The translations under genes and the position numbers were made by a program. DNA of 64,000 nt from Arcobacter sp. (GTDB lineage: Bacteria; Campylobacterota; Campylobacteria; Campylobacterales; Arcobacteraceae). How positions within the stretch are numbered: position 1 is the first letter of the stretch; each line of letters opens with the position of its first letter. Of the stretch, positions 27,248-30,580 are shown piece by piece. Where the stretch lies: contig PKUK01000010.1 in NCBI GenBank assembly GCA_002869535.1, forward strand, positions 1 through 64,000, written 5' to 3'. The notes beneath the pieces are model-generated. The model ran no database searches and was not told the origin of the DNA. It saw nothing but the letters and a program-made list of their open reading frames with translations.

Positions 27248-27324
<77 letters not shown>

Positions 27325-27407
27325 CTTTATATAAAAATTCCCAAAATTTATAAAATATGTTGTTATTGATTTGATTAAAGATTGTATTTATTTGTAGGTT
27401 AAACTAG

Positions 27408-27483
27408 TGGTGGCGCGGGGCAGAATCGAACTGCCGACACAAGGATTTTCAGTCCTTTGCTCTACCGACTGAGCTACCGAGCC
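27408..27483 (-). tRNA. tRNA-Phe (anticodon GAA)
   Basis: A 76-base cloverleaf with encoded CCA on the minus strand. The anticodon arm AAGGA-CTGAAAA-TCCTT gives GAA; D and T arms are regular. The acceptor stem GGCTCGG/CCGCGCC contains a T:C mismatch at pair 4:69 that breaks the helix; G at position 4 or A at position 69 would repair it. Confidence 0.95.
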
Positions 27484-27488
27484 ACTAG

Positions 27489-27573
27489 TGGTGGTGAGGG
27501 AAGGATTTGAACCTTCGAAGCCGTAGGCGGCGGATTTACAATCCGCAGGATTTGACCACTCTCCAACCTCACC
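27489..27573 (-). tRNA. tRNA-Tyr (anticodon GTA)
   Basis: An 85-base class II tRNA with a long variable arm and encoded CCA. The acceptor stem GGTGAGG/CCTCACC is perfect, and the anticodon loop TTGTAAA gives GTA. It ends 5 bases before tRNA-Phe on the same strand, so the two are probably processed from one transcript. Confidence 0.95.
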
Positions 27574-27638: not shown

Positions 27639-28337
27639 TTATAAAAATTTTGTATATTTTTGCCATTGTTCTAAAAAAGCATCTCTTTTTAAGATAATTG
27701 CACCTAAATCAAGTTTATATTGTAAACAGGCATGACCCAAATTCCAAAATCTATAATTGTTATTTTGAAGGTATTTACTTAAAAGTACTAACTGTAGTTT
27801 GCCATAATTGTTATACTCTTTTTCTCTATTTGAAAAACCTGTTAAACTTGTGTAAATACTACCTATTTTATATCCAATTTCTGCTGCAATTAAAGTTGAA
27901 TAGTCTTTGCTATATAGTTCAAAACTTAATAATTCAAAATTATCTTGTTTATTTGAAAAGATATCTAAGAGCATATCTTTATACTCTTTATTTATCCAAG
28001 AATCTTTGTGAAAATCATTTATACTCTCAATGACAAGATTGAGATTTTTATTTTTTACAAAAACAAAATCATCTTTTTGCATAAGTTTTTTTACTTTTTT
28101 ACTTATGTGAAGATCTTCAAAATACAAAACTGCATACTCAAACTGGATTTCAGGTAGTAAGTATGTTTTTTTGTTAGCAAGTGTTGCTGTTGTACTTATA
28201 AAACCAGCTTTTGCAAGTTTTATATACATGGTTGGAGAAAAATATTCATAGGCATAATAGTTCTCTTGCATATTTGGATATATATGCTCTTGTAATATTT
28301 TAGGATTAGATATTATCTCTTCATCTATTAAATAAAT
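27639..28337 (-). CDS. Leucyl/phenylalanyl-tRNA-protein transferase-like protein (divergent Aat)
   Basis: About 232 residues. The segments Y-F-S-P, L-H-I-S-K-K-V-K-K-L, W-I-N-K-E-Y-K-D-M, A-A-E-I-G-Y-K-I-G-S-I-Y-T-S-L-T-G-F and N-L-G-H-A-C-L-Q-Y-K-L-D-L-G-A line up with the Aat family, which adds Leu or Phe to N-terminal Lys/Arg for the N-end rule. The substrate loops differ clearly from the enterobacterial enzyme, so specificity may be different. The first ATG (28271) would cut off the conserved start of the fold. The frame is open upstream to ATT at 28337, 7 bases behind an AGGA site (Y-L-I-D-E-E...), which I take as the start. ATT is a rare start codon and may reflect a changed ATG. Confidence 0.7.
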   Translation of the reverse strand: MYLIDEEIISNPKILQEHIYPNMQENYYAYEYFSPTMYIKLAKAGFISTTATLANKKTYLLPEIQFEYAVLYFEDLHISKKVKKLMQKDDFVFVKNKNLNLVIESINDFHKDSWINKEYKDMLLDIFSNKQDNFELLSFELYSKDYSTLIAAEIGYKIGSIYTSLTGFSNREKEYNNYGKLQLVLLSKYLQNNNYRFWNLGHACLQYKLDLGAIILKRDAFLEQWQKYTKFL

Positions 28338-28389
28338 AATAAAATCCTATAGGAAAAAAAATGGTGTTTTTTGAATGTAGTAGCATTAG

Positions 28390-28417
28390 CTAAGACTTCT
28401 TATGTAAGAAGTCTTAG
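28390..28417. terminator. Perfect stem-loop at the 3' end of the flagellin-like gene
   Basis: CTAAGACTTCTTA (28390-28402), two bases, TAAGAAGTCTTAG (28405-28417): a perfect 13-bp inverted repeat that includes the stop codon of the leftward gene. No T tract follows on the minus strand, so it may stabilise the mRNA end or act as a weak terminator. Confidence 0.5.
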
Positions 28418-29239
28418 TACTGCTTGTTGATTTATATTATTAGCTTGTGCTTGTCCAAAAGAACCAATTTGAGCCAAAATATTTTGTTTTGAGAAACTAG
28501 ATACTTCTTTTGCAAAATCAACATTTGAAATGCCTGAAAGTGCTGAACTAGTGTTTACAACTTGTGAAGATAAAGATGTATATGAAGATTCTAGTTGTTG
28601 TGCAGTAGAACCTATCTCACTTCTAATATCTTGTAATTGATTAGATGCATTATCAATTGTATCTAAAAATGCTCTTGCATCTTGTGCTGAAAAACTACCA
28701 TTGTTTAAAAATTGATCTAAACCTAAGCCTTGAGTATTTGATTGTAGTGAATTCAGAGTTGTTGAGTCTCCTGAATCTGTCCCAATTTGTACATTAAAAG
28801 GGTTACTTCCACTTTGATCTTCACGACCATTTTGTAAAATAGATTCATTTCCATAACTTGTACTTGAAGCGATATTATCAAACTGTTCTAAAAGTTTATC
28901 TATTTCATTTTTAATAATATTTCTTTGATCATCACTTGTTGTATCAGTTGCGGCTTGTAAAGTTTTTTCTCTAATAGTGTTTAGAATATCTGATTGTTCT
29001 TTAAGGGCACCATCTCCTATTTGTAAATAAGATAAGGCACTATTTATATTTTCAACACCTTGAGTTAAACAACTTTGTTCATATTTTAGTGATTCAGAAA
29101 TAACCAAAAGTGCTGGATCTTCAGCAGCTTTTGTTATGTTCTCATTTTGTGCAATCCGATCTAGCGGACTGGTATTTCTAACTCCCTGAAGCTCTTCTGG
29201 TATATATAAATAATTGCTGTAATCATTACCTATAGTCAT
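28400..29239 (-). CDS. Flagellin-like protein with atypical N-terminus
   Basis: 279 residues. The region I-T-K-A-A-E-D-P-A-L-L through G-D-G-A-L-K-E-Q-S-D-I-L and D-D-Q-R-N-I-I-K-N-E-I-D-K-L-L matches the flagellin N-terminal helical domain, and the C-terminus (N-I-L-A-Q...V-L-R-L-L-T) matches the flagellin C-terminal helix. The first 30 residues, however, lack the usual flagellin opening (N-T-N-V-x-x-L), and there is a cysteine near residue 57. It may be a minor filament subunit, a junction protein or a diverged copy. It is monocistronic behind a GAAAGGAG site, with phased GTTAAC repeats upstream. Confidence 0.8.
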   Translation of the reverse strand: MTIGNDYSNYLYIPEELQGVRNTSPLDRIAQNENITKAAEDPALLVISESLKYEQSCLTQGVENINSALSYLQIGDGALKEQSDILNTIREKTLQAATDTTSDDQRNIIKNEIDKLLEQFDNIASSTSYGNESILQNGREDQSGSNPFNVQIGTDSGDSTTLNSLQSNTQGLGLDQFLNNGSFSAQDARAFLDTIDNASNQLQDIRSEIGSTAQQLESSYTSLSSQVVNTSSALSGISNVDFAKEVSSFSKQNILAQIGSFGQAQANNINQQAVLRLLT

Positions 29240-29339: not shown

Positions 29340-29378
29340 GTTAACTTTTTGTTAACTATTCATTGTTTCATAGTTAAC
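29340..29378. promoter_or_regulatory. Three helically phased GTTAAC repeats
   Basis: GTTAAC at 29340-29345, 29351-29356 and 29373-29378, with start-to-start spacing of 11 and 22 bases, i.e. one and two helical turns. The hexamer is self-complementary. Phased copies upstream of the flagellin-like gene and of the TATAAT at 29389 suggest cooperative binding of a regulator. Confidence 0.45.
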
Positions 29379-29400
29379 CCATACATAGTATAATTTTCTT

Positions 29401-29516
29401 ATAAATAAATAGAATGCGAACTATTTAAGAATACATTTTTATTAAGATTAAAGTCTCCTAGAAAAAATTTAAATCAGAGAAAAAAGGCACTATCAAGGGT
29501 TAGGTGCCTTTTTTTA
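29401..29516 (+). ncRNA. Candidate small RNA or truD leader
   Basis: A TATAAT (29389-29394) faces right and an intrinsic terminator closes at 29516, giving a possible transcript of about 115 bases without an open frame. The only rightward gene nearby, truD, starts after the terminator. It could be a free small RNA or an attenuated leader of truD. There is no match to a known RNA family that I recognise. Confidence 0.3.
29481..29516. terminator. Orphan intrinsic terminator upstream of truD
   Basis: AAAAAGGCAC (29481-29490) pairs with GTGCCTTTTT (29504-29513), followed by more T on the right; the A run on the left makes it work on both strands. No coding gene ends here from either side. Confidence 0.7.
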
Positions 29517-29581: not shown

Positions 29582-30580
29582 ATGAAAAGAGTATTTTTAC
29601 AAAATTATAAACCACTAAAATTTAAGTTTTATCAAAATATAGATGATTTTATAGTTACAGAAGAGCCTATAAGATTTACCAATAAAGGTAATTTTATAAT
29701 TTTAAAGATAGAAAAAGAGAGATTAGGGACTTGGGATTTAATAGACTCACTTGCAAGAAATCTAAATATATATGATAATGAGATAGGATATGCTGGTTTA
29801 AAAGATAAAAATGCAACTACCACACAATATATTTCAATCCCAAGAAAATATGCAAAAGATATAAAAAAATTTAGACATCCTAAAATAAAAATCTTAGATA
29901 CTTTTTTACATAGTACGAAATTAAATATTGGAGATTTATTAGGGAACTCATTTGAAATAAATCTACACGAAGTTGAAGCCTGTGATGTTGGTGTTATTGA
30001 AAAAAGACTACGTGAATTTGGGAAAGTGGGAGTACCAAACTTTTTTGGCTATCAAAGATTTGGAAAAGATGTAAAAGAGAACCTTGAAAAAGCAAATAAG
30101 ATTATTTATGGGGATTTGAAAATTAGAGATAGAAAGTTAGAAAAAATGTTAATCTCTATTTACCAAAGTGATTTATTTAATAAATGGCTTGCAAAAAGAG
30201 TAAAAATGTCTGAGGACAAATTTAAATTACTTGATGGTGAAGTGATGAAGTCACTTGATGACCTGAAGTTTTTTACACCAAATAAGATAAATGAAAAAAT
30301 AATAAGAGATTTTGAAGATAAAAAAATAGTGCCAACAGGACTTTTATGTGGTAGAGAAGTTTATAGAGCTAGAAATGAAGCCCAAGTTATAGAACAAGAG
30401 TTTGACGATACATATATTCAAGAGAAGGGTTTACGAAGAGATGCTATTATTTTCCCAGAAAATATTTTTGTAAATTATGATGTAGAGAATAAAAAATGTA
30501 AATTAAAATTTAGACTTCCAAAAGCATCTTATGCAACAGTACTTATTGAAAATATTGCAAATGAGAATTTAAGAGTTTAA
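29582..30580 (+). CDS. truD: tRNA pseudouridine(13) synthase TruD
   Basis: 332 residues from ATG 29582, which follows an AAAAGG site; upstream in-frame starts overlap the terminator and are unlikely. The TruD family motif G-Y-A-G-L-K-D-K-N-A-T-T-T-Q, with the catalytic aspartate, and N-F-F-G-Y-Q-R-F-G are present, as is the C-terminal S-Y-A-T-V-L-I-E. It converts U13 in tRNA-Glu and others to pseudouridine. Its 3' end overlaps the convergent kinase gene by 12 bases. Confidence 0.92.
   Translation: MKRVFLQNYKPLKFKFYQNIDDFIVTEEPIRFTNKGNFIILKIEKERLGTWDLIDSLARNLNIYDNEIGYAGLKDKNATTTQYISIPRKYAKDIKKFRHPKIKILDTFLHSTKLNIGDLLGNSFEINLHEVEACDVGVIEKRLREFGKVGVPNFFGYQRFGKDVKENLEKANKIIYGDLKIRDRKLEKMLISIYQSDLFNKWLAKRVKMSEDKFKLLDGEVMKSLDDLKFFTPNKINEKIIRDFEDKKIVPTGLLCGREVYRARNEAQVIEQEFDDTYIQEKGLRRDAIIFPENIFVNYDVENKKCKLKFRLPKASYATVLIENIANENLRV

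Follow-up and report, generated by a model that had tools for sequence, protein, structure and literature searches.

A phased-repeat promoter and a predicted anti-Shine-Dalgarno small RNA beside a flagellin-like gene of Arcobacter suggest a small-RNA arm of an envelope-stress regulon

What is transcribed from the short gap between a leftward flagellin-like gene and truD in an Arcobacter sp. contig, and which regulator would control it? In the 64,000-nt stretch of DNA analysed here (the window), this gap lies between ORFs at 28400–29239 (PF00669/PF00700) and 29582–30580 (PF01142), assigned by domain matches as flagellin-like and truD, respectively, and houses a repeat box and a terminator. A preliminary description had noticed three GTTAAC hexamers at 11- and 22-base steps. 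Their positions (29340, 29351 and 29373) stand, but they form only the first, second and fourth half-sites of a four-fold repeat, because 29362–29367 is a degenerate half-site, giving four sites at 11-bp steps rather than three at 11 and 22. The regulator box (29340–29378, plus strand; promoter-model E = 1.3e-11) comprises four direct half-sites at 11-bp phase, i.e., GTTAAC (29340–29345), GTTAAC (29351–29356), ATTGTT (29362–29367) and GTTAAC (29373–29378), as delineated by column statistics over 91 units. The rightward TATAAT reported at 29389 is present on the plus strand at 29389–29394, exactly 10 bp beyond the last half-site, and in the window this box-to-−10 spacing is present rightward only. 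The orphan bidirectional terminator was likewise recovered by folding within the gap, as a plus-strand intrinsic terminator (29479–29515) with a 13-bp stem, an 11-nt loop and a T-run that is bidirectional in sequence. Beside these features, a 13-bp stem-loop with a T-rich tail (28389–28418) overlaps the end of the flagellin-like gene and is possibly its terminator, and a tRNA-Arg(tct) facing tRNA-Phe and tRNA-Tyr on the other strand (27248–27573) adjoins a Leu/Phe-tRNA-protein transferase-like gene (27639–28271).

The hexamer GTTAAC alone is not enriched in the window (11 observed versus 16.3 expected). The GTTAAC-N5-GTTAAC pair, the three-hexamer array and the four-site box with its −10 element each occur once in the real window and in none of 300 first-order Markov sequences of it; the phased arrangement is not a product of chance. 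Scanning the whole genome for the four-site box returned 10 matches in all versus 9 in a reversed control; those with 0–1 mismatch are only the window copy and two siblings, while the other 7 carry 3 mismatches. GTTAAC-N5-GTTAAC pairs at one mismatch are no commoner in this genome than in the reversed control.

The unit is found at the same place in all three genomes of the genus in the examined set, with flanks aligning into the flagellin and truD frames (ORFs were listed for one congener in this comparison). The best conserved intergenic parts are the box, the −10 element and the terminator, all kept in 2/2 other genomes of the genus, which bears out the proposed conservation of repeats and terminator in related strains, and the RNA body retains CTCCT. 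Beyond the genus, BLAST matches to this region were mostly short and AT-rich and were not taken as homologs, one of them (G014:C1:601748) later being recovered as a unit. With a congener copy as query, a second place was found in each genome (3/3), where two units stand in tandem with identical promoter spacing; each has a TTCTCCT-type stretch, a GC-rich terminator and, at its 5′ end, a hairpin whose loop reads AATACGAA or AATGCGAA. The window's own genome has three units, each detected by the promoter model at E < 4e-9, with the next best match at 0.0012.

In the alignment of 91 rows, the starts of the half-sites fall at 0, 11, 22 and 33, and the sites read RTTAAC, RTTAAY, RTT and RTTAAY by column statistics, the −10 element lies at position 49, and an A at position 61 (96%) is the likely transcription start. 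The rows were gathered with the spacing of 49 as given, and 68/91 entered the alignment of the promoter-only model R2 without a gap; when spacings of 48 and 50 were permitted as well, 49 scored best in every RNA-like unit among the matches listed. One stretch overlapping on the opposite strand (L119:3426-3491:+) was left out of the counts over 52 units given below and is still among the 91 rows. This layout, with direct repeats phased at 11 bp and the last of them stopping 10 bp short of the −10 element, is that used by an OmpR/PhoB-type activator. Since the A at position 61 is conserved, the window transcript is predicted to start at 29401 and to span 115 nt (29401–29515, plus strand).

Within this predicted RNA, a 5′ hairpin (29406–29427, plus strand) presents the loop AATGCGAA at 29413–29420, which is identical to a loop of the tandem siblings on a different stem, and is followed by a putative anti-Shine-Dalgarno (anti-SD) stretch TCTCCTAG (29454–29461, plus strand), whose CTCCT is retained in both congeners. 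The window copy is atypical among units: its linker is longer, it is missed by the covariance model R1, and it lacks the CAU that adjoins the anti-SD stretch in the tandem siblings. Rfam gave no match in the window unit at gathering score, the best sub-threshold match reaching at most half of that score. A small RNA of about 115 bases had been proposed here, and conservation, siblings and the fixed promoter-to-RNA layout point the same way; the sequence evidence strongly supports reading 29401–29515 as a small-RNA gene with a regulator-box promoter. The transcript might instead be a mere leader or attenuator of truD, which lies downstream on the same strand with the terminator in between. We regard this as very unlikely, as the siblings and related units have promoter, anti-SD stretch and terminator without an adjacent truD, and no truD-specific leader features were seen.

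The preliminary description had also suggested that the same repeats, through one shared regulator, govern the leftward flagellin-like gene. GTTAAC is palindromic, so that the sites can be read both ways, and leftward matches to the promoter model occur in the two congeners, though they are weak and partial (E 0.21 and 0.50). However, the window's own genome yields no leftward match at E ≤ 1, and the aligned units share one fixed direction and spacing, which makes it highly improbable that the repeats act divergently on the flagellin gene as well. Predicted pairing of the window RNA with the flagellin translation start (−10.3 kcal/mol) is no stronger than the mean over window genes (−10.4 kcal/mol). 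The idea of one regulator behind the repeats itself gains support, and a candidate is described below; the flagellin-like gene as its co-target is unsupported.

We traced the units through the family and the order with several models. Covariance model R1, built from six tandem units, has matches in 36/104 family genomes at E ≤ 0.05; at least one of these matches is false, namely L080, which lies within coding sequence, has no box and was dropped. Named species genomes scanned with an exact pattern gave 55 stretches, 50 of them under Campylobacterota-type names and two (L097, L125) simply as 'bacterium'; judged by eye, 52/55 drive an RNA-like unit, the three strays being L114, L132 and L133. 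The promoter-only model R2 has matches in 95/104 family genomes and 20/20 genera at E ≤ 0.1, and at E ≤ 0.001 in 80/398 order genomes, 40 of the 80 belonging to this family; R2 was partly built from these genomes, and those members therefore match by construction. In Arcobacter sp. LC1, three box-driven small-RNA units stand in a row (L112 2535–3071, minus strand).

The Arcobacteraceae-type set comprises 52 non-redundant units (63 before collapsing). By the test applied here, a terminator is present in 49/52, versus 7% of dinucleotide shuffles, and absent from 3/52. A GCGAA/ACGAA-like motif in the loop of the 5′ hairpin occurs in 46/52 versus 20% of shuffles, and an anti-SD-like stretch in 48/52 versus 26% (4/52 are without), both patterns having been chosen after viewing the sequences. 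A body ending 30 nt short of the T-run undercounts the anti-SD stretches, at 23/52; the count of 48/52 also uses an altered pattern. No Rfam family matches the box-driven units. At L138 5103–5376, on an Arcobacter sp. contig with two box-driven units, there is a 5′ ureB small RNA match (53.1 bits; gathering 40); as this single Rfam match lies elsewhere in L138 than the units, 5′ ureB was rejected as their identity.

A second type of unit leads to a regulator. At 27 loci of the Sulfurovum type, the gene that follows the box and an anti-SD RNA encodes an OmpR/PhoB-type regulator, and a kinase gene comes next in 26. These strongly conserved RNAs between box and ArsRS-type regulator gene (L098 5438–5592 and 26 other loci) are different RNAs of ~130 nt, in which a long closing stem encloses three CU-rich anti-SD stretches. 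Compensatory changes are seen in 11/30 predicted pairs (23 of 27 sequences aligned), and no Rfam match was found in the loci scanned. As the RNA types differ while the box and the anti-SD stretches recur, what is conserved is the box together with the anti-SD principle, not the RNA sequence. In the one pair tested, the kinase belongs to the ArsS family (391.7 bits; cut-off 250). In the window's own genome, the closest relative (59% identity) is encoded in an htrA–regulator–kinase operon, and a second relative (50% identity) shares its operon with an LTXXQ/CpxP-like gene (27.9 bits; cut-off 24.3); NCBIfam places both kinases in the ArsS family, CpxA models scoring far below their cut-offs. This genome encodes two ArsRS-type regulators, both candidates for the box. 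The CpxP-like operon carries a weak box of its own (19/21 half-site positions; promoter-model E = 0.07); at the htrA promoter, no more than the final two half-sites are in phase, with a perfect −10 element.

Which genes share the box was assessed at two sets of 20 places, both hand-picked from the match lists rather than random. Among 20 weaker-scoring places in the family, the box stands before 9 htrA genes and 11 RNA-like units, and the htrA places that were followed onward continue as htrA–regulator–kinase in 5/5. Twenty places beyond the family, classified by eye, comprise 3 htrA genes, 3 LTXXQ/Spy-like genes, 2 regulators, 1 other ORF and 11 RNA-like units. As would be expected of a regulon of the ArsRS/CprRS type, the regulator gene cluster itself carries the box, in the Sulfurovum-type loci and at these htrA places, and more weakly in the window's own genome. 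The enterobacterial Cpx regulon includes the protease HtrA/DegP, a CpxP/Spy-like protein, an autoregulated OmpR-type regulator and small RNAs. Judged by their sequences, the genes sharing the box make up a Cpx-like envelope-response set, the likeness extending to HtrA, the CpxP/Spy-like genes, an OmpR-type regulator gene carrying its own box and the small RNAs. In contrast to Cpx, the kinases here are of the ArsS family, the predicted RNAs are anti-SD RNAs with dedicated promoters, and no Hfq was found: a search for PF17209 gave 0/41 relatives, with the control search positive in 5/14 known genomes.

Another OmpR/PhoB-type regulator might drive the RNAs instead, be it an orphan of the HsrA/CosR kind, one of the phosphate type or a further one, with a signal other than envelope stress. 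The window's own genome offers 58 receiver-type matches, and HP1043 binds hexamers with an identical 5-bp spacing. Nevertheless, the HP1043 consensus is TTTAAG and not RTTAAC, and the box is shared by htrA, Spy/CpxP-like and ArsRS-type regulator genes, rendering another regulator rather unlikely. Two named boxes were set aside in particular: the HP1043/HsrA-CosR box, whose TTTAAG-N5-TTTAAG consensus differs from the RTTAAC-like hexamers here, and the PhosR/PHO box, considered for its 11-bp repeats, as no phosphate gene is among the 20 + 20 box places inspected.

Candidate targets come from tandem sibling t2, to which, and not to the window RNA, the predicted-target evidence applies. Sibling t2 is complementary to AGGAGAACAAATGAA, which at ≤2 mismatches has 43 matches in this genome versus 22 for the reversed control. 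The two exact matches are a cytochrome c start and the opposite strand of the RNA gene itself, and a MOMP porin (PF05538, 134.6 bits) and a DctP protein are among those with one mismatch. We inspected 30 of the 43 places, and 19 of the 30 begin an ORF of at least 60 aa; 13 of these 19 candidate targets are exported by a simple rule, versus 16/59 window genes (Fisher p = 0.002) and versus 3/11 window genes starting ATGAAR (p = 0.057).

Taken together, we consider it likely, at a probability of roughly 0.7, that this interval encodes a small RNA belonging to a Cpx/CprRS-like envelope-stress regulon, in which such RNAs keep exported proteins from being translated by blocking their starts. What the sequence itself shows is the box with its phasing and conservation, the genes with which it co-occurs and the anti-SD stretches; from these we infer transcription, regulator identity, activation by stress, pairing and targets. 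An OmpR/PhoB-family response regulator (ArsRS/CprRS type, encoded with HtrA) would bind the four phased RTTAAC-like half-sites and, substituting for a −35 element, recruit RNA polymerase; the box promoter would then drive a 115-nt RNA ending at the terminator. In the window RNA and its two tandem siblings, a CU-rich stretch that complements Shine-Dalgarno sequences may lie exposed, and in the siblings the complementarity also covers the AUG and the following Lys codons. Translation of abundant exported proteins, among them porin, cytochrome c and periplasmic binding proteins, would thereby be blocked at its start, which would take load off the envelope at the same time as HtrA and Spy/CpxP-like proteins are raised through the same box. 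More tentatively, and with the odds somewhat against it, one could envisage an order-wide, Hfq-independent small-RNA arm of the Cpx-like response, in which rapidly diverging RNAs under one box are antisense to SD-AUG-AAA-AAA starts and silence, as a class, mRNAs for proteins with Lys-rich signal peptides, the GCGAA loops docking an RNA-binding partner.

How does this proposed regulon compare with known systems? The C. jejuni CprRS genes presumably adjoin htrA. CprRS is described as an OmpR-type regulator acting on the cell envelope; as an envelope regulator of the same order it is the nearest named system, whereas neither small-RNA targets nor an RTTAAC box were found in the text consulted (PMC7887314). 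The streptococcal CiaRH csRNAs have CiaR promoters of the form NTTAAG-N5-TTTAAG with the last repeat 10 nt before TATAAT (PMC3091779). They resemble the present units in having several siblings per genome, the N5 spacer and the 10-nt distance to TATAAT, as well as unpaired anti-SD and anti-AUG stretches and an own terminator (here anti-SD-like stretches in 48/52 and terminators in 49/52 units). They differ in their repeat, TTTAAG twice versus RTTAAC-like four times here, and in regulator, phylum and RNA sequences, and the present box also stands before htrA and Spy/CpxP-like genes. The box-driven RNAs would hence work like the CiaRH csRNAs but not be members of them, a likeness that looks convergent. 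Within Campylobacterota, the C. jejuni flagellar small RNAs CJnc230 and CJnc170, compared by description only, include in CJnc230 a putative anti-SD stretch between two stem-loops; unlike the present RNAs, CJnc230 needs RpoN and lies downstream of flgE (PMC11187230). According to a 2013 comparison, 6S is the only ncRNA conserved between C. jejuni and H. pylori, and the absence of Hfq is connected there with how few ncRNAs are predicted (PMC3847290).

No paper on the RTTAAC box or on box-driven RNAs was recognised in searches of an open-access library; within that scope, a widespread small-RNA set in Arcobacter-like bacteria has apparently gone undescribed so far. Its mechanism fits a known kind, that of sibling anti-SD RNAs driven by a regulator, but the lineage and the box are new and the physiological frame is different. 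In an order in which no Hfq was found (0/41), a conserved small-RNA regulon surfaces when the promoter rather than the RNA sequence is followed. For these bacteria, the proposed regulon would offer a testable answer to how induction of an envelope protease combines with translational relief; its RNAs, and the candidates for its regulators and targets, are listed here.
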